Shown: piece after piece, positions 43,304-56,098 of the stretch
Layout: each line of letters begins with the position of its first letter
Position numbering within the stretch: the stretch's first letter is position 1
Origin: Anaerolineae bacterium
GTDB lineage: Bacteria; Chloroflexota; Anaerolineae; Aggregatilineales; Aggregatilineaceae
NCBI GenBank assembly: GCA_018432315.1
Contig: JAHDLB010000030.1
Coordinates: forward strand, 62,001 to 126,000
Length of the DNA stretch: 64,000 nt
Reading direction: 5' to 3'
Position numbers and translations under genes: made by a program
Notes under the pieces: model-generated
The model's database searches: none
Told to the model about the DNA's origin: nothing
Seen by the model: the letters and a program-made list of their open reading frames with translations, nothing else

Positions 43304-44758
43304 CTATTCCACCCCCACCGCGGCAGCCAACGCCGCCCCGGCCACCTGCGCGGCAAGCGCAGGATCGTCTTCCGACTCGATCACGACGACCACCGCCACC
43401 GCTTCCGGCTGGTCGCTTTCGGTCACATCCGCGAACCCCGCGAACCACACGTAAGGCGTGGCATCCGGCCCGCCATAGGCCAGCGCGCTGTGGCCGTACA
43501 ACACAAGATCGCCCAGCCGCGCCTGGCTCACATACGGGCTTTGAGCCGACGCTTGAAGCATCGTCAGGCGCACCGCCGAGGCCACGTCCGCCCGCAGCAA
43601 TGCCGGGCGGCGCGCCGGCAGTTCGAGCGACTCCCATTCGGACGAGCCAGGCGCCCGCACCGCGTCGACGAGATGCAGCGGCACGGCGTTTCCCTGGTTG
43701 GCGATGGCCGCGATCACCTGCAGCATTTGCAGCGGCGTGACGGTCAGGTCGCCCTGGCCGGTCAGCGCCGCCACGAGTTCCTCGCTCGGCGTCTCGTCGT
43801 GCAGCAGCGGCGGCGGGCTGCCCGCTGCGGTAGTGAACCCGCTGAGCACCGGTGACGTGAGCAGGCCCAGCGCGTCGAGCCGTTCCCACAGGTGCCCCGG
43901 CGTCAGGCCGGATTCCATCGCGCGCGCGAACGGCGCCGGACAGCCGAACAGGTACGCTTCGGCCAGCGTCAGCGGGCGCGATGGCGTGCCCGGCAGGCAG
44001 GTCAGCTCCAACCCGTTGACCCGGACCGGCGTGTCCACGTCCGGCACCTCGCTGTTGAGCACGTAGCCGCCCTGCTGGCTCAGGTCCGACTGGGCCGCCA
44101 GCATCGCCGCCAGCACCACCGTCTGCAGCGCGCCGCCCGGCTGGTACTGCCCCGCCGTCGCGCGGTTGAGCAGCGGCGACGTCTCTACGTCGCGGGCCAG
44201 GGTTTCCCACGCTGCGTCCAACTGATTAGGATCATAGTTCGGCTGGCTGACCATTGCCAACACGCGCCCCGAAGGGACGTGCGCCACGACGACCGCCCCG
44301 CTGTGCGATCCGAACGCCTCCGACGCGGCGAGCTGCACGTCCAGGTCCACCGTGGACCGCACGTCGCTGCCCTGTGGCGCGCGGTGCAGCAGGTCGTCGA
44401 CCAGGTCCCGCCAGGCGCTCGCCTGGTCGTCGCCCCGCAGCTCGGCATCGAACGCCGCCTCGATGCCCGCCGTCCCATAGGTGACGCTGTAATAGCCCAC
44501 CGGCGCGGCGGCCTGTGGATAGGGGTACACGCGGCGAGCGAGCCCGGTTTCGGTCACCTCGGAATACGCCAACTGCTCGCCGTCGCGATCGAGGATCGCC
44601 CCCCGGCGAATGCGCTGCTCCGCGATCACGTTGCGGGCGTTATCGGAGCGTTCGCGCAGGCTGTCGGCGCGCACGACCGCCCAGTACGCCGCGCCGATCG
44701 TCACCACCCCGAAGCAGAGCAGCGCGGCCAGCGCCACCCATTTCAGCTCGCGCGTCAT
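43304..44758 (-). CDS. PbpA/PBP2-like protein lacking catalytic motifs
   Basis: Single-pass membrane protein of 484 residues with a PBP transpeptidase-like fold: TM ~7-29, juxtamembrane RIRRGAILDRDG (52-60 region), SGAVVVAHVPSGRVLAMVSQ, and GQGDLTVTPLQMLQVIAAIA, all normal PBP landmarks. But the active-site motifs are gone: SxxK (usually PGSTFK) reads PGGALQ (Gly209, Gln212); SxN reads GCP (272-274); KTG reads HSA (423-425). It should not bind beta-lactams or cross-link. ATGA overlap couples it to the SEDS gene, so it may act as an allosteric activator of that polymerase (inference). A strain-specific mutation is unlikely, as all three sites are changed. Confidence 0.85.
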   Translation of the reverse strand: MTRELKWVALAALLCFGVVTIGAAYWAVVRADSLRERSDNARNVIAEQRIRRGAILDRDGEQLAYSEVTETGLARRVYPYPQAAAPVGYYSVTYGTAGIEAAFDAELRGDDQASAWRDLVDDLLHRAPQGSDVRSTVDLDVQLAASEAFGSHSGAVVVAHVPSGRVLAMVSQPNYDPNQLDAAWETLARDVETSPLLNRATAGQYQPGGALQTVVLAAMLAAQSDLSQQGGYVLNSEVPDVDTPVRVNGLELTCLPGTPSRPLTLAEAYLFGCPAPFARAMESGLTPGHLWERLDALGLLTSPVLSGFTTAAGSPPPLLHDETPSEELVAALTGQGDLTVTPLQMLQVIAAIANQGNAVPLHLVDAVRAPGSSEWESLELPARRPALLRADVASAVRLTMLQASAQSPYVSQARLGDLVLYGHSALAYGGPDATPYVWFAGFADVTESDQPEAVAVVVVIESEDDPALAAQVAGAALAAAVGVE

Positions 44759-46074
44759 ACCGGCATCCTCTCGTCGGTGCTCAGCACCAGCAGCAGGCCG
44801 GCGATCACGAAGCTGGTCAGCAGCGAGCTGCCGCCATAGCTCACGAACGGCAGCGTGACGCCCGTCAGCGGGACGATCCGGAGCACGCCGCCCATGATCA
44901 ACAGGCTCTGCACGGCCAGCATCATGCTCAGCCCGGACGCCAGCAGCGACCGGAACACGAACCGGGTCCGCGCCGCGATCGACAGCCCGCGCACGACGAT
45001 CACGGCCAGGGTCGCCACGATGGTGATCGTGCCCACCAGGCCCCATTCCTCGGCTACCGCTGCGAAGGCGAAATCGCTGTGAACGACCGGGATGATCGTG
45101 GGCTGTCCCTGGGCGATGCCCTGGCCGAACACGCCACCCGCCGCCACCGCCATCAGGCTCTGGACGATCTGGTACGCGTCCGAATCCGCCGTCGACCACG
45201 GGTCGGCCCATACATCCACCCGCAGGGTCACGACGTCGAACTGGGTATAGGCCGCCGCCGCCGCGGCCAGCAGCAGGACGGCGCCACCCACCAACAGCAG
45301 CGCCTGCCCGCTGGTCAGGTACAGCATGAACATGAACACCACGAAAAACAGGGTGGCGGTTCCCAGGTCGCGCTGCCAGACGAGCACGACCATGCACACG
45401 CCCCACATCAGCAGCACGGGCGCCAGGAAGGCGGGCGACGGCACCCGCCAGCGCCAGACCCGGATCGTATCGGTTCGCATGTAGCGTTGGTGATCGGCGA
45501 AGAAACTCGCCAGGAAGACGACCAGCACGATTTTGAGCAGTTCCGACGGCTGGTAATACACCCGCCCAAACCCCAACCACAGCCACAGGCGCGGCCCGGT
45601 GCTGGATGGATTCTCTCCGATGAGGATCGTGATGCCCAGCAGCGCCAGCCCGCCGATCAACCACGTGTAGCGGTAGCGGCTCAGCCAGCGCAGATCGCGC
45701 GGGAGGAACGACACCGCCAGCAGCGCCGCCACGCCCACGACCAGCCACAGTGTCTGCCGGTCGGCGTAGGACGGCACCAGCCGGTCGACGAGGTTCAGCC
45801 CCCAGCCGGTCAGGAACATCGCCAGCGGGAACAGCAGCGGATCGCGCCGGGGCAGCCGCCGGTTGAGGACGGCGTGCCCCACGACGGCACATCCCGCCCA
45901 CACGCCCACCGGCCAGAGCGACGTCCAGGGCCGGTCGCGCGCGACCACCAGCGCGACGTGATTGACCAGGATGATCAACCCGGCCAACGCCAGCAGCGCC
46001 GCCTCGCGCCACGGCGACGCCGGCATGTCTTCCAGGTCGAATTCCCCCGTGCGCAGCACAGCGCGATCGGTCAT
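44755..46074 (-). CDS. rodA: SEDS glycan polymerase (RodA/FtsW family)
   Basis: Membrane protein of 439 residues, about ten to eleven TMs. Catalytic Asp of SEDS proteins is visible at 236 in LVWQRDLGTA, with SSTGPRLWLWLGFGRVYYQPSE and HSDFAFAAVAEEWGLVGT (332-347) and VTLPFVSYGGSSLL. Polymerises lipid II into glycan (known for RodA/FtsW); RodA versus FtsW cannot be settled from motifs. Coupled by ATGA to the PBP homologue, as with RodA-PbpA in Actinobacteria, and starts 21 bp after mtnP. Confidence 0.92.
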   Translation of the reverse strand: MTDRAVLRTGEFDLEDMPASPWREAALLALAGLIILVNHVALVVARDRPWTSLWPVGVWAGCAVVGHAVLNRRLPRRDPLLFPLAMFLTGWGLNLVDRLVPSYADRQTLWLVVGVAALLAVSFLPRDLRWLSRYRYTWLIGGLALLGITILIGENPSSTGPRLWLWLGFGRVYYQPSELLKIVLVVFLASFFADHQRYMRTDTIRVWRWRVPSPAFLAPVLLMWGVCMVVLVWQRDLGTATLFFVVFMFMLYLTSGQALLLVGGAVLLLAAAAAAYTQFDVVTLRVDVWADPWSTADSDAYQIVQSLMAVAAGGVFGQGIAQGQPTIIPVVHSDFAFAAVAEEWGLVGTITIVATLAVIVVRGLSIAARTRFVFRSLLASGLSMMLAVQSLLIMGGVLRIVPLTGVTLPFVSYGGSSLLTSFVIAGLLLVLSTDERMPV

Positions 46075-47883: not shown

Positions 47884-50800
47884 TCACGCGCGCGCCCAAT
47901 AGGTGACCACGGTTTCGAGCGCCGTGGCCGGCCCGTCCAGGGCCAGCGCCCGCAGCCGCGCCAGCGAGAAACTCGCCTGATCGAGCGCGTTGACGCGAAA
48001 CAGCCGGTCGGCCTGCCCGGCGTGGCGCGCCCGAAGCTGGTGGACGCGCACGAGCACGCCCGCCGCCTGCTGCACCAGCGCGGAGTCGCCCGCCGCTTCC
48101 GCCGCGTCGATCGCCTCGTGCAGCGCCGCCTGGGCCGCCACCGAATCGCCCTGCGCCAGCCGGAGCTGCCCCAGCGACAGCAGCGCCTGCCCCTCGCCCG
48201 CCACGTCACCGGCGCGGGCCAGCAGGTCCCGGCTGCGCGCCAGGCTGTCGGCGGCATCGTCCAGTTGGAGCAGCGCCGCCTGCGTCCGGCCCAGGTCCTG
48301 GACCAGGTAGCCCAGCGCGGCCCAGTCCGCCCGCGGGAGTTGATCGGCCAGCGCGTCGCTCAATTGGAGCAGCGCGCTGCGGCTCTCGCGCCGGGCGCGC
48401 TCGTTATCGCCCGCCTGCCGGGCGCGCGCCGCCTGCGTCAGGTGCACCCGCGCCAGCAGCTCGCGGGCGCGCCCCGCCAGGTCGCGCCGGTCCAGCCGAT
48501 CGGCGGTCGCCACCGCCCGGCGCAGCAGGTCTTCCGCACCTTCGAGATCGCCCTGCCCGATCAGCAGCTCGCCGTAATCGCACTGGGCGCCCGCCGCGCG
48601 GTCGGCTCGGCGCGCCTCGGCATATCCGGTCAGCGCCGCCTTGAACCGGGCCGCCGCCGCCTCGACCTGCCCACCGGCCACCAGCGCGTTAGCCCACTCG
48701 TGCGCCAGCCGCGCCGCCTGGATCACGTCGACCGGGCGCTGCGCCAGGATCGCCCGCAGCCCCGACGACAGCGCGTCGGCTGCCGCGTCCGCCTGCCCCA
48801 CCGCCACCAGGTGGCGCGCCATCTTGCAGCGGGCCTGGGCCAGCGTGGCCTGATCCAGCCCGGCCATTTCGCCCGTCACCTGGAACAACCAGGCGGCTTC
48901 GTCCTGCCTGCCGGGCAAGTCGGCCAGCGCCTCACCGAGCGCGATCTGCAGCCGCGCCAGCTCGCGCCCTTCGGGAAGCTGCTCATGGATCGCGGCGGCC
49001 ATGGCGGCGAATTCCCCGGCCAGCCCTGCCGCGCGGTAGGACGGGGCCGCCAGCACCAGCGCCTGCGCGATCAAAGCCGGGTGCAGGCCGCCATCCGCCC
49101 CGGACCGCCGCAGGATGGCCCGCAGGTGATGCAGCGCGGCGAGATCGCCCGGCCACTGCCGGACCAGGTGCAGCAGCGCCGCCTGGTCGGCCTGCAACTG
49201 CTGGTTCAGGTCGAGCGGCGCGAGCAGGTGAATCGCGCCACGCGCCGCCGGGGCCAGATCGTACCGGCCCTCCGCCACCCGCAGCAGCCCCCGGCGCGCC
49301 AGCACGGCGACCTGCTGCGCGGCGCGCGCATCGCCCAGCGCCCGCGCCATCGCCTCGTCGAACGAAGCGGGCACGCTTTGCAGGCGCGACAACAGCCGCA
49401 CGGTCGAGGGATCGTCGACGCTCAACTGCCTGATCGACCGCGCCAGAAACTCCGCCACCGGGTCGGCCATGTCCGTCCGCAGCCCGGCCAGCTCGTCCAG
49501 CGCGTGCGCGATGCCGCCGGATCGCACCCATTCCACGCCTTTGACGATCAGCCACGGGACGTTCAGCGTCCGCTCCAGGAAATCGTCGATGGTGTCCACG
49601 TCCAGCGCGTCGACGCCCCCCTCGACCGCCAGCCGCAGCGCGAGCGTGCGCGCCGCCTTGCCCGGCAGCGGCTCCAACGCGTACGAGCGCCCTTCCCCGG
49701 CGAGCATCTGGCTCGCCTGCCGCGCCGTCAGCAGGCACACGCTGCCCGACTCCCGCGGAACGGCGCGCAGCCAGCCGCCCAGGCGTTCCAGGTCGGCGCG
49801 GGATACGATCGCGTCAACCTGGTCGAGCACGATCAGCACGCGCTGCCGTCCCAGCGCGGCGGCAGCATCCTCGCCGCTCGTCCCGGCGGGCAGATCCAGC
49901 ACGCGCGCCACCTGCCCGATGACGTCGTCCAGCGTCATCTGGCTGTGCGCCTCGATCCAGGCCACGCCATCCGGGAAGCGCCAGCCAAACCGCCCCGCAA
50001 ATTCCGCCGCCAGCCGGCTTTTGCCGATGCCCGCCGGCCCGGTGATCTCGACCAGCGCCCCGCCGGCCACCTCGCGCGCCAGCCGCGTGAGCACGTCCCG
50101 GCGATCGACGAATCCTTCGTTGCGTGGCAGCCCGGCGCTTCGCGGCTGGCCGGGGGCCAGCAGCGGACGGCGCGCCCGCATCCCCGGCGGCGGCAGCGTG
50201 ACCGGGGCCGCGTCGCTCGCCGCCACGATCTCGTAACGGTCCGCGGGGCCGTCGGGCAGCGCGGCGACCGCCGCCAGCGCCGCGCGATAGGCCGCCGGGA
50301 CGCTCTCACCGTTGGTGAGTCCGGCGTACAGCGTTTCGGCAAATAGACCGGCAGCGCGGCCCGCGGGCCGGCGCCGGGTGCCAACCACCGCGCCCACCCC
50401 GGCCCGCTCGCCGAGAAGCTCGGCCATCCGGCGGCTGAAACAACCATCGAGGACGATCAGATCGACCTGCCCCGGCACCAGCAGGCGCGCCAGATGCTCG
50501 GCCACGACATACGCCTCGTGACCGTCCTCGTCTTCCAGAAACAGCATATCCCGCTCGCCATAGCACACGATGTGCACGACCCGGAACGCGTCCGGCCCGG
50601 CCACCCGGAGCGCCTCGCGCAGCCGGGCCGACGTCGGCGGGACGAGACGCACCAGCGCCAGCGGCGCGCCCGCCGGGGTGCGGCGTTCCGTGGCGGCGGC
50701 CATGGCGCCCACCAGCGCCCGCCACTCGGCGACCGGGTCCAGCGGGTTGAGCGGATCGTGATTCCCGTTCAGCCCGGCATACGGCGCCGCGATGACGCCG

Positions 50801-50928
50801 AGCACGGGCAGATAGCGCCGCAACTGGGCGAGGCCGGGGTCACGCGCGAGGTCGCCGCGGTCGATCACCGTGAAGCGGTCCATCAAAATTTCATGGTTTT
50901 CGCGAGCGGCTGTCAATTTTTCGTCCAT
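47884..50928 (-). CDS. CHAT-STAND-TPR protein
   Basis: Protein of 1014 residues, three parts. N-terminal CHAT (caspase-like) domain ~35-245: His119 in FRVVHIVCYGERD and Cys163 in LIVLDGCFS; the expected His of the HG motif is Tyr123. STAND/NB-ARC-like ATPase ~270-520: EITGPAGIGKSRLAAEF (297-304 Walker A), RVLIVLDQVDAI (Asp369, Walker B), VCLLTARQ. TPR-like helices ~580-1000 with ~20 Ala/Leu-rich repeats. STAND-TPR proteins oligomerise on ligand and can switch effector domains in antiphage or programmed-death responses (known of the class). Transcript is leaderless. Single gene with no obvious partner. Confidence 0.85.
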   Translation of the reverse strand: MDEKLTAARENHEILMDRFTVIDRGDLARDPGLAQLRRYLPVLGVIAAPYAGLNGNHDPLNPLDPVAEWRALVGAMAAATERRTPAGAPLALVRLVPPTSARLREALRVAGPDAFRVVHIVCYGERDMLFLEDEDGHEAYVVAEHLARLLVPGQVDLIVLDGCFSRRMAELLGERAGVGAVVGTRRRPAGRAAGLFAETLYAGLTNGESVPAAYRAALAAVAALPDGPADRYEIVAASDAAPVTLPPPGMRARRPLLAPGQPRSAGLPRNEGFVDRRDVLTRLAREVAGGALVEITGPAGIGKSRLAAEFAGRFGWRFPDGVAWIEAHSQMTLDDVIGQVARVLDLPAGTSGEDAAAALGRQRVLIVLDQVDAIVSRADLERLGGWLRAVPRESGSVCLLTARQASQMLAGEGRSYALEPLPGKAARTLALRLAVEGGVDALDVDTIDDFLERTLNVPWLIVKGVEWVRSGGIAHALDELAGLRTDMADPVAEFLARSIRQLSVDDPSTVRLLSRLQSVPASFDEAMARALGDARAAQQVAVLARRGLLRVAEGRYDLAPAARGAIHLLAPLDLNQQLQADQAALLHLVRQWPGDLAALHHLRAILRRSGADGGLHPALIAQALVLAAPSYRAAGLAGEFAAMAAAIHEQLPEGRELARLQIALGEALADLPGRQDEAAWLFQVTGEMAGLDQATLAQARCKMARHLVAVGQADAAADALSSGLRAILAQRPVDVIQAARLAHEWANALVAGGQVEAAAARFKAALTGYAEARRADRAAGAQCDYGELLIGQGDLEGAEDLLRRAVATADRLDRRDLAGRARELLARVHLTQAARARQAGDNERARRESRSALLQLSDALADQLPRADWAALGYLVQDLGRTQAALLQLDDAADSLARSRDLLARAGDVAGEGQALLSLGQLRLAQGDSVAAQAALHEAIDAAEAAGDSALVQQAAGVLVRVHQLRARHAGQADRLFRVNALDQASFSLARLRALALDGPATALETVVTYWARA

Positions 50929-52291: not shown

Positions 52292-52732
52292 CTATTCTTC
52301 TAATTCCACTTTGAGCAGGATCTGCCCGATGCCGATCACGTCGCCGGTCGAAACCACCACCGGTTCGCGCACCGGCTCGTCATTGAGCAGGGTCCCGTTG
52401 CTGCTGTTGCGGTCTTCGAGCCACCACTGGCCGCCGCGCCGGGTGACCAGCGCGTGCTCCTGGCTGCAAAATGTATCGTCCAGGACGATCGTATTCGTCG
52501 GGCTGCGGCCCAGGCTGGTCAACGGCAGCAGGGGAAAGCTTTTGGTCGCCCCGGTCGCGCCGTCCGGGCCGCGCATGACCACCAGCCGCCCGCGCCGGCG
52601 CTGGCCCTCGGCCAGGGTGCTCGCTGAGGCCCGGAAGTCGCGCCACAGCACCCAGAAGATCGCCCCCAGGAAGCCCAGCAGCAGCGCCGCCGTGATCGCG
52701 CGCAGCGCCAGCAGAACGACATCCGTGCTCAA
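52292..52732 (-). CDS. fhaB: FhaB-like membrane FHA protein
   Basis: Protein of 146 residues: a TM helix (~5-28, LLALRAITAALLLGFLGAIFWVLW), a basic linker, and an FHA domain (~50-140: FPLLPLTSLGRSPTNTIVLD, QEHALVTRRGGQWWLEDRNSSNGTLLN) with the phosphothreonine-binding Arg/Ser and Asn. Start is TTG, overlapping the fhaA-like stop as TTGA, so it is translated by coupling. TM plus FHA is the FhaB/FipA form of Actinobacteria, which acts with FhaA on cell-wall synthesis and division. Confidence 0.82.
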   Translation of the reverse strand: MSTDVVLLALRAITAALLLGFLGAIFWVLWRDFRASASTLAEGQRRRGRLVVMRGPDGATGATKSFPLLPLTSLGRSPTNTIVLDDTFCSQEHALVTRRGGQWWLEDRNSSNGTLLNDEPVREPVVVSTGDVIGIGQILLKVELEE

Positions 52733-53526
52733 GGTGTCTCGTCTCCATCGTCGGGACGGTTCATCAGCACCTGGGTATCGCCGCCGTGGGACAACCTTTC
52801 GGTAGTCGATTCTTCGACGACGTACACCAGCTTGCTCTCGCCCAGCGCGATCACGTCGCCGGGCTTGAGCACGCACTCCGACACGCGATCATCGTTGACG
52901 AACGTGCCGCCCTTGCTGCCCAGGTCGTACAGCACGAACTGTCCGAACCGGAACCGGATCTGGCAGTGCTGGCGGCTCACGCGCGGATCGTCCAGCACGA
53001 TCGCGTTGTCGCGCCTGCGCCCGAGGTTGATCACGGACCGATCGAGGGGCACGTACTGGCTGCCGTTGATGACCAGAAAGGCCACCGGCATCGGCCCGCC
53101 GCGCCCGCGCGGACCGCTTTCGAGCGCGGTCATCGCCTGCGTGGACTCCTGGGGCCGCGCGACGTGCGCCGCCGTCACGACCACGCCGTGCAGGCTGATC
53201 TCCTCATCCGGCACGAAGGTCACGTGGGGCGCAGTTTCGAGGCGCAGATTGCTCTCGCGCGCCAGGCTGACGATGTGCTCGGCCAGCATGTCGGCCACGT
53301 CGGGCTGGTGGGCGAGCAGCGCGCCGCAGTCGTCCGGATTCAGGTGGACCTCGTAGGCGTTGGGCGCTGTCGGATTGTCCCCATGGCTGGCGCCATCCTC
53401 CATAGCATGCGCCAGCCGCAGCGCGACCTCGCGCGGGTGGAGCCGTCCCGCAAACAGGCGCGTGAAGCCCCCCTCGACCAGGGCCTGAATGCGCTCTTCG
53501 AACTGTGAAAACCGTCGTTTGTCCAT
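52729..53526 (-). CDS. fhaA: FhaA-like protein (DUF3662 plus FHA)
   Basis: Protein of 265 residues. DUF3662 domain ~1-115 (FEERIQALVEGGFTRLFAGR, LHPREVALRLAHAMEDG, then a beta part). FHA domain ~175-250 (INLGRRRDNAIVLDDPRVSRQHC and YDLGSKGGTFVND), with intact phosphothreonine-binding Arg and Ser. In Mycobacterium FhaA binds phosphorylated MviN and regulates peptidoglycan synthesis (known). Here it is coupled to fhaB-like gene, and a RodA-PBP homologue pair lies 6.6 kb away. No Ser/Thr kinase or PstP phosphatase is visible. ATG at 53526 is leaderless; upstream in-frame extension rejected. Confidence 0.88.
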   Translation of the reverse strand: MDKRRFSQFEERIQALVEGGFTRLFAGRLHPREVALRLAHAMEDGASHGDNPTAPNAYEVHLNPDDCGALLAHQPDVADMLAEHIVSLARESNLRLETAPHVTFVPDEEISLHGVVVTAAHVARPQESTQAMTALESGPRGRGGPMPVAFLVINGSQYVPLDRSVINLGRRRDNAIVLDDPRVSRQHCQIRFRFGQFVLYDLGSKGGTFVNDDRVSECVLKPGDVIALGESKLVYVVEESTTERLSHGGDTQVLMNRPDDGDETP

Positions 53527-53680: not shown

Positions 53681-55516
53681 CTACCGGTCGCTGGGCCGGT
53701 TCTTGCGAATGAAGTCCAGCGGGTCGATGTAGTTCGCCAGCAGGTTGTCGCGGTTCAGCTTCGGCCAGTGCCAGGGCTGAGTCGCCAGAATCGATGTCGG
53801 GCTGAGATCGAAGTGCAGGTGATACGCGAAGATGCCCTCGCCATTGCCCACCTTGCTGATCTGCTGGCCGCGCACCACGCGGTCACCCACTTTCACGACC
53901 ATATCCTCGACGTGCGCGTACCGCCCGTAGAGCGTTTTGCCGTTGGAGATCAGCGGGTCGTGGCGGATGACGATCACGTTGCCCCAGCCGGCGATCCGCC
54001 CGGCGAAGGTCACCACGCCGGAGGCCGCCGCGTAGATCGGCGAGTGAGCGTCGGCGTCCCAGTACGGCTCGTTGAGGTTGAGGTCGACGCCGGTATGGTA
54101 CGCCTCGCCGGACGTGCCGACCCGGTAGCGGCGCGCGAAGCCCGTCGCGTCGAACCACTTGCCCGGCCACATTGCATCCGACGAACGTTCCGAGGCAGTG
54201 CCCACCGGGCTGTCGTAGCCGTCCGCCAGGTACTTGGTCGTCGGCACGATCCCGACAATCTGGCGCCAGCGCAGCGCGTCGAACGCGATTTCCTTGTTTT
54301 CCTCGCCGGTCAGGTCGTTCAGGAAGACGACGCCCGCCTGCGCGTTGTTGGCGTCGAACTGGTACACGCCCAGCGGGACCCACACGTTATAATAGCTCGC
54401 CTGCCGGATCGGGATCTCAAGCTCGCCGGAGCTGCCCTGCGCGCCGTGCAGCTTGTAGCGGGCGCGCGTCGTGGTCGCGTGGCGCGAGGGCACGAACGCC
54501 GACACCTCGTACCATCCGCTCGCCACCAGGTCCGGGTCCCACCGCGCCCAGATGAGGCTGCTGGTCTTGGCGGTGGACTTATATTTGGTGTTCCAGCCCC
54601 ACAGGTTCTTGAACTTCTTCAGCAGCTTGTTGACGTCCTGCCCGCCGAACGCGCCGTCACGGTAGCGCGGGCTGTCGGGCGTGACAACGACCTCGATGCC
54701 ATAGCGCCCCTGGCTGGGCGGCGGCGGCTCGTCGTCGCCGTTGCCCACGTCCCCGATCGGGTGGTTGATTGCCGGGAACTCCACCGGGCCGATCACCCCG
54801 AACCGCCACCAGCTAATGCCGGTCGCTTTGTATTTGCTGACGACCAGCTTGCGGCCCGTGTTCATCTCGGCGCGCGGCGCCGATCCCGGCAGCACCGGGA
54901 ACACCGGCAGCCCGTAGTTGCCCCAGGTGTCGAAGCCTTCTTGGAGCACTTCTTCCACGTCGCGCTGGAACGTCTCCCAGTACAGTTGGAGATGGACGCT
55001 GTTGACGAAGGGCCGCCATTCCTGGGGAAAGATGCGCGGCTTGTGCTGCGGACGAGGATCGACGGCCATGCCCAGGTGGAACCGCCCGCCGATTCCGCGC
55101 CGGATCCGCGTCATGAACGGGCGGATGGGGTCGCGCCCGACGGTCCAGAAGCCGGCATATGGCTCGACGTCCAGCACCATCGACTTCACGCCGGGCCGGT
55201 TGCACACCTCGATGATGCGGTCCGCCTCGGCGGTGATGTTCCGCCCTTTGACGACTGCCCAGGCGTGGAACTCCATCCCGTGTGCCTGGAGAACGCGCAC
55301 CCATTTGTCGACGCTGGCCACGCTGTCGATCGCCAGGTCGCGATCGGTGTCGAATTCGCCCTGCCAGTTTTCGCCGTCGCTGGTCTTCACCCAAACCTGG
55401 GTCACTGCCGGCGCCCAGGTCTTGATGGTTTTCACGAGGTCTTCGATCGTTTCCTCGGCGATAGAGTCGCCTTTCCAGTGCCAGATCGCCACTTTGCCAT
55501 CGTAAGGCGTCGCCAT
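53681..55516 (-). CDS. Glycosidase-like, golvesin-like and M23 peptidase multidomain protein
   Basis: Protein of 611 residues, no signal peptide. N-terminal ~1-270: TIM-barrel-like glycosidase-like region (WVKTSDGENWQGEF, MVLDVEPYAGFW with the DxE, FHLGMAVDPRP). Middle ~285-440: golvesin-like domain (VVVTPDSPRYRDGAFG, ASYYNVWVPLGVYQFD, EIAFDALRWRQI). C-terminal ~460-600: M23 peptidoglycan endopeptidase with zinc ligands in HTGVDLN (474, 478) and HLHFD (566-568). All parts suggest wall hydrolysis, but export is unexplained: phage endolysin, contractile injection cargo or non-classical secretion are possible. AAAAGGAG precedes the ATG at 55516. Confidence 0.82.
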   Translation of the reverse strand: MATPYDGKVAIWHWKGDSIAEETIEDLVKTIKTWAPAVTQVWVKTSDGENWQGEFDTDRDLAIDSVASVDKWVRVLQAHGMEFHAWAVVKGRNITAEADRIIEVCNRPGVKSMVLDVEPYAGFWTVGRDPIRPFMTRIRRGIGGRFHLGMAVDPRPQHKPRIFPQEWRPFVNSVHLQLYWETFQRDVEEVLQEGFDTWGNYGLPVFPVLPGSAPRAEMNTGRKLVVSKYKATGISWWRFGVIGPVEFPAINHPIGDVGNGDDEPPPPSQGRYGIEVVVTPDSPRYRDGAFGGQDVNKLLKKFKNLWGWNTKYKSTAKTSSLIWARWDPDLVASGWYEVSAFVPSRHATTTRARYKLHGAQGSSGELEIPIRQASYYNVWVPLGVYQFDANNAQAGVVFLNDLTGEENKEIAFDALRWRQIVGIVPTTKYLADGYDSPVGTASERSSDAMWPGKWFDATGFARRYRVGTSGEAYHTGVDLNLNEPYWDADAHSPIYAAASGVVTFAGRIAGWGNVIVIRHDPLISNGKTLYGRYAHVEDMVVKVGDRVVRGQQISKVGNGEGIFAYHLHFDLSPTSILATQPWHWPKLNRDNLLANYIDPLDFIRKNRPSDR

Positions 55517-55554
55517 CAAAGTCGCTCCTTTTCCATCGCCCGTCACCTGACTGG

Positions 55555-55657: not shown

Positions 55658-56098
55658 TCAGTTGAGCTTCTTCTGGCCGGACCGGCGGCCTTCCCACCCC
55701 ACCGGGAACAACGCCACATCGAGCGCGGTCCACAGGCGGCGCGCGTCCATTTCGGACAGCAGCACCTTCCACGTGTTGCGCTGGATCCAGCCGACCAGCG
55801 TGTACTGCGAACCGGCGCCCTTGACGACCTCGACGTGCGTGGTAACTTCCGGATTCGAGGGCGCGCGCAGCGGCGCGGTCACCGCCAGGCCGGTCACCAT
55901 GTCGGACTTGTCGGGGTAGAGCAGCACGGTCAGCTTGAACCACAACACCTGGGCCGCGCGCCGGGTCAGCACCTGCGACCAGCGGTCTTCACTCTGATCG
56001 ACGCCCCCCAGCATCACGGTCAGGTCGCCCTCTTCGCGACTCACCGTCAGGTCCGTGGAGAGGCCGATCTGACGCCGTTGGGTTTCGCTGGTCGCCAT
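55658..56098 (-). CDS. Unrecognised 146-residue protein
   Basis: No signal peptide or TM. N-terminus MATSETQRRQIGLSTDL, then a beta-rich region (VSREEGDLTVMLGG, VLWFKLTVLLYPDKSDMVTG, EVTTHVEVVKGAGSQYTLVG) and an amphipathic C-terminal helix with SEMDARRLWTALDVALFPV. No motif recognised; possibly a beta-sandwich structural protein. AGGGGA precedes the ATG; the gene has its own promoter region and terminator, so it is monocistronic. It sits upstream of the signal-less M23 gene, which begins with the same MAT; I would not infer a functional link. Confidence 0.6.
   Translation of the reverse strand: MATSETQRRQIGLSTDLTVSREEGDLTVMLGGVDQSEDRWSQVLTRRAAQVLWFKLTVLLYPDKSDMVTGLAVTAPLRAPSNPEVTTHVEVVKGAGSQYTLVGWIQRNTWKVLLSEMDARRLWTALDVALFPVGWEGRRSGQKKLN

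Follow-up and report, generated by a model that had tools for sequence, protein, structure and literature searches.

In Streptococcus pneumoniae, LytA is a wall hydrolase encoded by the cell's own genome and made without a signal peptide (PMC12029793). Signal-less endolysins of lactococcal prophages contribute to autolysis (PMC5247546). The GHL10 lytic transglycosylase Cwp19 of Clostridioides difficile is a glycan cutter tied to autolysis (PMC6016235). The protein described here resembles LytA in being encoded by the cell's own genome and in having no signal peptide, and its domains suggest that it, too, acts on the wall. We found no account of it in the literature searched, which covered autolysins, golvesin, Chloroflexota walls and injection systems in part; the same partial coverage yielded nothing on golvesin together with M23 and peptidoglycan.

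The gene lies in a window of 64,000 nucleotides (the whole stretch of DNA that was analysed) from an Anaerolineae bacterium. The original prediction had placed a glycosidase-like region, a golvesin-like domain and an M23 endopeptidase in a single protein starting MATPYDGKV. This architecture was borne out by Pfam for two of the domains and by the fold of a structural model for the barrel, and the predicted reading frame and start were exact. The features are as follows.

53681-55516, minus strand: three-domain hydrolase, 611 aa plus stop, ATG at 55516, no Sec or Tat signal found
54752-55516, minus strand: glycosidase-type (beta/alpha)8 barrel, residues 1-255, from the AlphaFold2 model, structural neighbours and conservation
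54269-54595, minus strand: Golvesin_C, residues 308-416 (Pfam PF25275, E 1.2e-11)
53804-54097, minus strand: M23 metallo-endopeptidase, residues 474-571 (Pfam PF01551 Peptidase_M23, E 3.1e-18)
55525-55532, minus strand: AAAAGGAG, ribosome-binding site of the hydrolase, at a distance of 8 bases from its ATG

Residues 1-260 had no Pfam match at E 0.1, and the barrel had nothing convincing in NCBIfam. A weak, sub-cutoff NCBIfam row over residues 50-125 (E 0.067) was taken as chance, as was PDB chain 5wee_A, which touched the barrel in a profile search at E 1.7; up to E 10, the same PDB search returned no GH18 chain. An AlphaFold2 model was calculated with the window protein and sequences from 46 of the 80 named loci introduced below as input. 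Its mean pLDDT is 90.7, and its pTM of 0.52 means that the relative placement of the domains is not trustworthy; residues 257-268 form a low-confidence linker. In this model, residues 1-255 are a glycosidase-type barrel. Structure searches took the whole model, and parts outside residues 2-259, including the golvesin fold, were barely covered. The nearest solved structure in VIA-align is a Pyrococcus chitinase domain (Z 18.8, 234 residues), followed by Cwp19 (Z 18.7, 237 residues, 14% identity), GH164 (18.1), GH113 (17.2), SleL (17.0), GH26 (16.6), hevamine (16.4) and many GH18 chitinases. Since these values span only about 2.5, the fold class is clear, whereas the family is not.

Seven candidate active-site residues of the barrel (D116, E118, D153, R155, H175, Y179 and W180) are invariant in all 47 aligned sequences. 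D116xE118 and Y179 would fit the GH18 triad; the correspondence to D125/E127/Y183 of hevamine (taken from a PDB title) was drawn by eye rather than by superposition, and the folds of GH164, GH113, GH26 and Cwp19 reach equally high scores. The C-terminal domain has the HxxxD and HxH zinc ligands and the LytM-type fold of M23 peptidases: H474, D478, H535, H566 and H568 are likewise invariant in 47 of 47 sequences, and the domain matches ShyA with a Z of 17.4 and StM23 with a Z of 17.0 (VIA-align).

The presence of a signal was judged by hydropathy and by a twin-arginine rule applied to the sequence. Within the first 36 residues of the hydrolase, the best 11-residue hydropathy value is 0.30, and over its full length no 19-residue window exceeds 1.3. 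By these measures the protein has neither a Sec or Tat signal nor a transmembrane segment, and the predicted lack of a detectable export signal was confirmed. Five other M23 proteins of the same genome, those found by the search in a genome that may hold more, all carry a signal, a lipobox-like motif or a membrane segment, with hydropathy values of 2.65-3.47; in L003, the segment is internal and not N-terminal.

The main evidence against a signal-less protein is an in-frame TTG upstream of the ATG, which would add MGKRRRCCQFPLSIILSSQVTG, a basic and then mildly hydrophobic stretch whose best 11-residue hydropathy is 1.61 and which is flagged by the twin-arginine rule. The TTG has no ribosome site, whereas the ATG has one, and other members of the family have sites similar to AAAAGGAG. 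The reading frame closes no more than 11 codons before the aligned start in 10 of the 13 loci compared within this family (L001 and L007-L018), so these ten have no room for a signal. The frame stays open for 38-47 codons in the remaining three (the window locus, L009 and L016), and these upstream readings look unrelated by eye. The alternative upstream start that the original prediction had named as a way to overturn it is thus not conserved.

We extended the comparison to 80 named loci, the best 80 of 121 found, some of which share genomes with unnamed ones. At the start chosen by script, hydropathy was at most 1.58 (median 0.75) and no locus had a signal; in 74 of the 80, this start is an ATG preceded by a ribosome site at least 4 bases long. 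Other in-frame starts scoring 1.95-2.25 occurred in two loci: in L098 they are two GTG codons within an SH3-like region, and in L128 the start is a TTG that lies upstream of the chosen ATG and has no ribosome site. When applied to any in-frame start, the twin-arginine rule flagged four of the 80 loci, none with a ribosome site and all inside the SH3-like region or on its border. The same rule flagged all five barrel controls with twin-arginine signals, whose hydropathy (1.58-2.2, n=5) touches the orthologue range of up to 1.58. The N-terminus of the hydrolase is strongly conserved across orthologues. In 57 of the 80 loci (counted by eye), an SH3-like stretch precedes the barrel, again without a signal; Pfam SH3_3 was over its cutoff on this stretch in one of four sequences tested and below it, at E 2e-5 to 9e-4, in the other three. 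The conserved motif TPYDGK is unlikely to be an N-terminal export signal, because in the SH3-fused branch it lies about 95 residues inside the protein.

A hydrolase match below E 1e-100 was present in 53 of the 61 genomes of one Chloroflexota order, so the signal-less protein is not a chance product. The gene was not found in G003, G006, G012, G015, G016, G036, G053 and G059, several of which are incomplete, and in four of the 53 carriers (G011, G018, G028, G049) the copy is split or cut. Between genera of a family, the proteins are 73-80% identical. In a sample of 400 genomes from the phylum (profile search, E 1e-20), full-length copies were recovered from the source genome and from G018 of the same order, and the barrel with golvesin from G377 of the same class; in other classes, three genomes had barrels and two had golvesin domains. 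Absences in this sample are weak, because three candidates were scored per genome. The taxon labels attached to the 80 named loci are, with few exceptions, Anaerolineae, Anaerolineales, Chloroflexi, Aggregatilineales or close to these, and the odd labels of L095 (Bacteroidetes) and L106 (Pleurocapsa) were taken as mislabelling.

Neighbouring genes were counted in those 54 named loci whose flanks exceed 4.5 kb on each side. A FeS_assembly_P gene was nearby in 46, SufB in 44, FhaA in 6 and FtsW in 6; at least one of these was present in 50 loci and none in four (L103, L107, L116, L122). Pfam also supports the suf genes within the window. The hydrolase gene has chromosomal-type neighbours, usually suf genes, and is probably inherited vertically. 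In the window, it is flanked by two genes.

52729-53526, minus strand: FHA protein of the FhaA type (FhaA_N plus FHA in Pfam; start at 53526 set by eye), directly downstream of the hydrolase
55658-56098, minus strand: 146-aa orphan protein; in 20 of the 80 named loci, a relative is the next gene upstream of the hydrolase

The orphan had no matches in Pfam, PHROG or NCBIfam. Its model is soluble (mean pLDDT 79) and weakly resembles a PUR-alpha repeat, with a best Foldseek E of 2e-3 and a TM of about 0.4; on this basis we rejected a role as holin or inhibitor. A link to the hydrolase is putative and consists in adjacency. As a separate observation, Pfam places two FHA proteins in a row, of the FhaA/FhaB type, at 52292-53526 (minus strand) and an FtsW/RodA-type gene at 44755-46074; this combination is reminiscent of the wall-growth clusters of actinobacteria. 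Beside the FHA genes, at 47884-50928 (minus strand), lies a gene for a 1014-aa NB-ARC/STAND-type ATPase, with AAA_22 and NB-ARC over cutoff, weak TPR matches, a weak match to the TPR protein of the FxSxx-COOH system and a first third that is CHAT-like by eye.

The genomes of the order also hold paralogues. We considered 39 loci, the stronger partial matches; weaker ones and some others were left out, and because several of the 39 are closely related to one another they are not 39 independent cases. The N-terminus is readable in 36 (it is cut in L173, L181 and L191; for L159, L160, L167, L183 and L184 it was read by eye), and none of these 36 has a convincing signal. L171 has a stretch scoring 2.03 upstream of its ribosome-site ATG, and a twin-arginine scan of 34 of the 39 (all but L187-L191) gave a single flag, in L161, at a TTG without a ribosome site. 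M23 proteins of weaker similarity, the five controls, do carry signals. A Pfam scan of 10 of the 39 found M23 in L165 and L170 (below cutoff in L155), a C39-like peptidase in L157, L161 and L162, a GDSL lipase with golvesin in L163 and, in L160, Glyco_hydro_cc with an SH3 below cutoff; L165 additionally had golvesin and L170 SH3, and L154 and L158 had no match. In L187-L190, which belong to one family, the orthologue adjoins a second signal-less barrel-golvesin-M23 protein, and the two barrels are of different types. By eye, the neighbours of the paralogues look like ordinary genes. Another order of the class has a signal-less relative of 909 aa (L172, 7200-9926, minus strand) with the same barrel, golvesin and a further part; its neighbours look by eye like transaldolase and transketolase.

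The original prediction had also asked for the N-termini of homologues. No signal was seen in the full-length orthologues of the 80 loci; in other Chloroflexota classes, three genomes have barrel-only relatives that do carry twin-arginine signals, which goes halfway to the refutation by homologues that the prediction had named. Five such loci (L147, L148, L149, L152 and L153) match the barrel profile at E 3.7e-27 to 1.2e-34, and all five carry a twin-arginine signal, such as SRRKFL or PRRYFLK, followed by an alanine-rich stretch. By eye, they keep the DxE and QxYW motifs; no M23 was seen in them. L152 has LysM-like repeats by eye, and a 145-aa piece of it had no Pfam match. Given these signals, the barrel fold serves outside the cytoplasm in the other classes.

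We also searched for known ways out of the cell. A contractile sheath is absent from the source genome, which is 99% complete. Sheath matches were found in 17 of the 61 genomes of the order, 16 of them over the family cutoff; 16 of the 53 hydrolase carriers have a sheath and 37 do not. LrgA was found in none of the 61 genomes (6 of 14 control genomes were positive). WXG100 is absent from the source genome and present in 24 of the 61, with 20 of the 53 carriers having it and 33 lacking it. None of the three tracks the hydrolase gene among the genomes of the order. No exporter-like gene was recognised beside the hydrolase or its paralogues, whose neighbours were judged by eye. In two pattern-based scans, viral contigs contained no relative of the hydrolase, and the barrel alone had no match among 50,697 phage records. 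The M23 domain is about 30-35% identical in the 20 phage matches listed of 397 records; the listed matches lie within residues 440-608, and no record spans 80% of the protein. The M23 part also matches PHROG endolysin families, and two predicted structures from viruses (255-294 aa) resemble a portion of the model. No phage family was found among the Pfam-annotated neighbours in the window. The original prediction had offered lysis, a holin, an injection device or action after cell death as ways to the wall; the injection device finds no support here, nor does the holin as far as LrgA is concerned, and lysis and post-mortem action are retained beside an undescribed route.

With no known exit tag, the hydrolase is probably either retained in the cell up to the moment of membrane failure or carried out by an undescribed route. 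The simplest reading, for which LytA is the precedent and which we tentatively favour as the most probable single one, is a lysin kept in the cytoplasm that acts upon membrane failure. A vertically inherited peptidoglycan hydrolase would be made and stored in the cytoplasm; once the inner membrane was breached or leaky, through the cell's own lysis, attack by phage or competitor, or death, it would reach the wall. There, the barrel would act on the glycan strand and the M23 domain would open the peptide cross-links, while golvesin, joined in the sister branch by the N-terminal SH3-like domain, would hold the enzyme in place. This reading is favoured because all 80 loci lack a signal at the chosen start and share a strongly conserved N-terminus, because the M23 and barrel residues are intact in every aligned sequence, and because the SH3-like fusion of one branch is signal-less as well. 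It is also favoured by the signals, lipobox or membrane segments that the genome's five other recovered M23 proteins all carry, by the absence of sheath, LrgA and WXG100 from the source genome and by the twin-arginine signals of barrel relatives elsewhere. However, a purely post-mortem enzyme is not obviously kept at 73-80% identity between genera, and the signal-less C39-like and GDSL-lipase paralogues fit a general secretome better than they fit lysins. Living cells of the order might instead export the hydrolase and its signal-less modular paralogues by an undescribed route independent of Sec and Tat, which we consider rather unlikely. The breadth of the signal-less set, which recombines shared domains, and the strong conservation of the hydrolase keep such a route under consideration, and the same barrel bears twin-arginine signals in other classes; against it, no exporter-like gene was recognised among the neighbours, and several of the paralogue loci are close relatives. 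Given the internal position of the conserved motif in the SH3-fused branch, the route would have to recognise folded domains. That one such route exports the whole modular set, namely several barrel types with M23, C39-like, GDSL lipase, SH3-like and golvesin domains, all moved off Sec and Tat in a single Chloroflexota order, is less likely than export by such a route as such.

Quite improbable is a purely intracellular role, in which the hydrolase would process recycled wall fragments or some other glycopeptide of the cytoplasm and need no export. Signal-less orthologues and a conserved gene among housekeeping neighbours would suit it, but attachment-type SH3-like and golvesin domains fit it poorly, as do the structural closeness of the M23 domain to endopeptidases of the wall and the twin-arginine signals of the barrel relatives. 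A domesticated phage endolysin released by a holin would account for the phage-like M23 part and the two viral structures, and is nevertheless very unlikely: the barrel had no match among the phage records, viral contigs yielded no relative in pattern-based scans, suf/FeS or FhaA/FtsW genes lie near 50 of 54 well-covered loci, and LrgA was found in none of the 61 genomes. A prophage origin is not supported, nor, as far as LrgA tells, is a lysis cassette with a holin. A signal peptide supplied by the upstream TTG ranks below even the endolysin, despite the character of the added residues, given the ribosome site at the ATG and the closed frames of related loci. Least probable of all is an effector of a contractile injection system; sheath genes do occur in the order, but they do not track the hydrolase gene, and most of its carriers, the source genome included, lack them.

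This gene set bears on how signal-less wall hydrolases reach the wall. The same barrel, with a twin-arginine signal in sister classes and without one in this order, provides a natural comparison. Export of the hydrolase by living cells would indicate an undescribed route; retention in the cytoplasm would indicate programmed or opportunistic lysis as a shared trait of these Chloroflexota.

Signal-less wall hydrolases are already known; this one comes from a little-studied Chloroflexota order and, by its architecture, would be a two-way cutter. LytA, from another phylum, is an amidase with choline-binding repeats and has no M23, barrel or golvesin domain, whereas the hydrolase has all three. The M23 endolysins of phages, such as those of Thermus phages and the lysin A of mycobacteriophages, are alike in the M23 region alone. 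Cwp19, with its similar barrel, has a signal peptide and CWB2 motifs (PMC6016235), whereas no signal was found in the hydrolase. The five barrel proteins of the other Chloroflexota classes share the barrel itself, but carry twin-arginine signals in place of a bare N-terminus.
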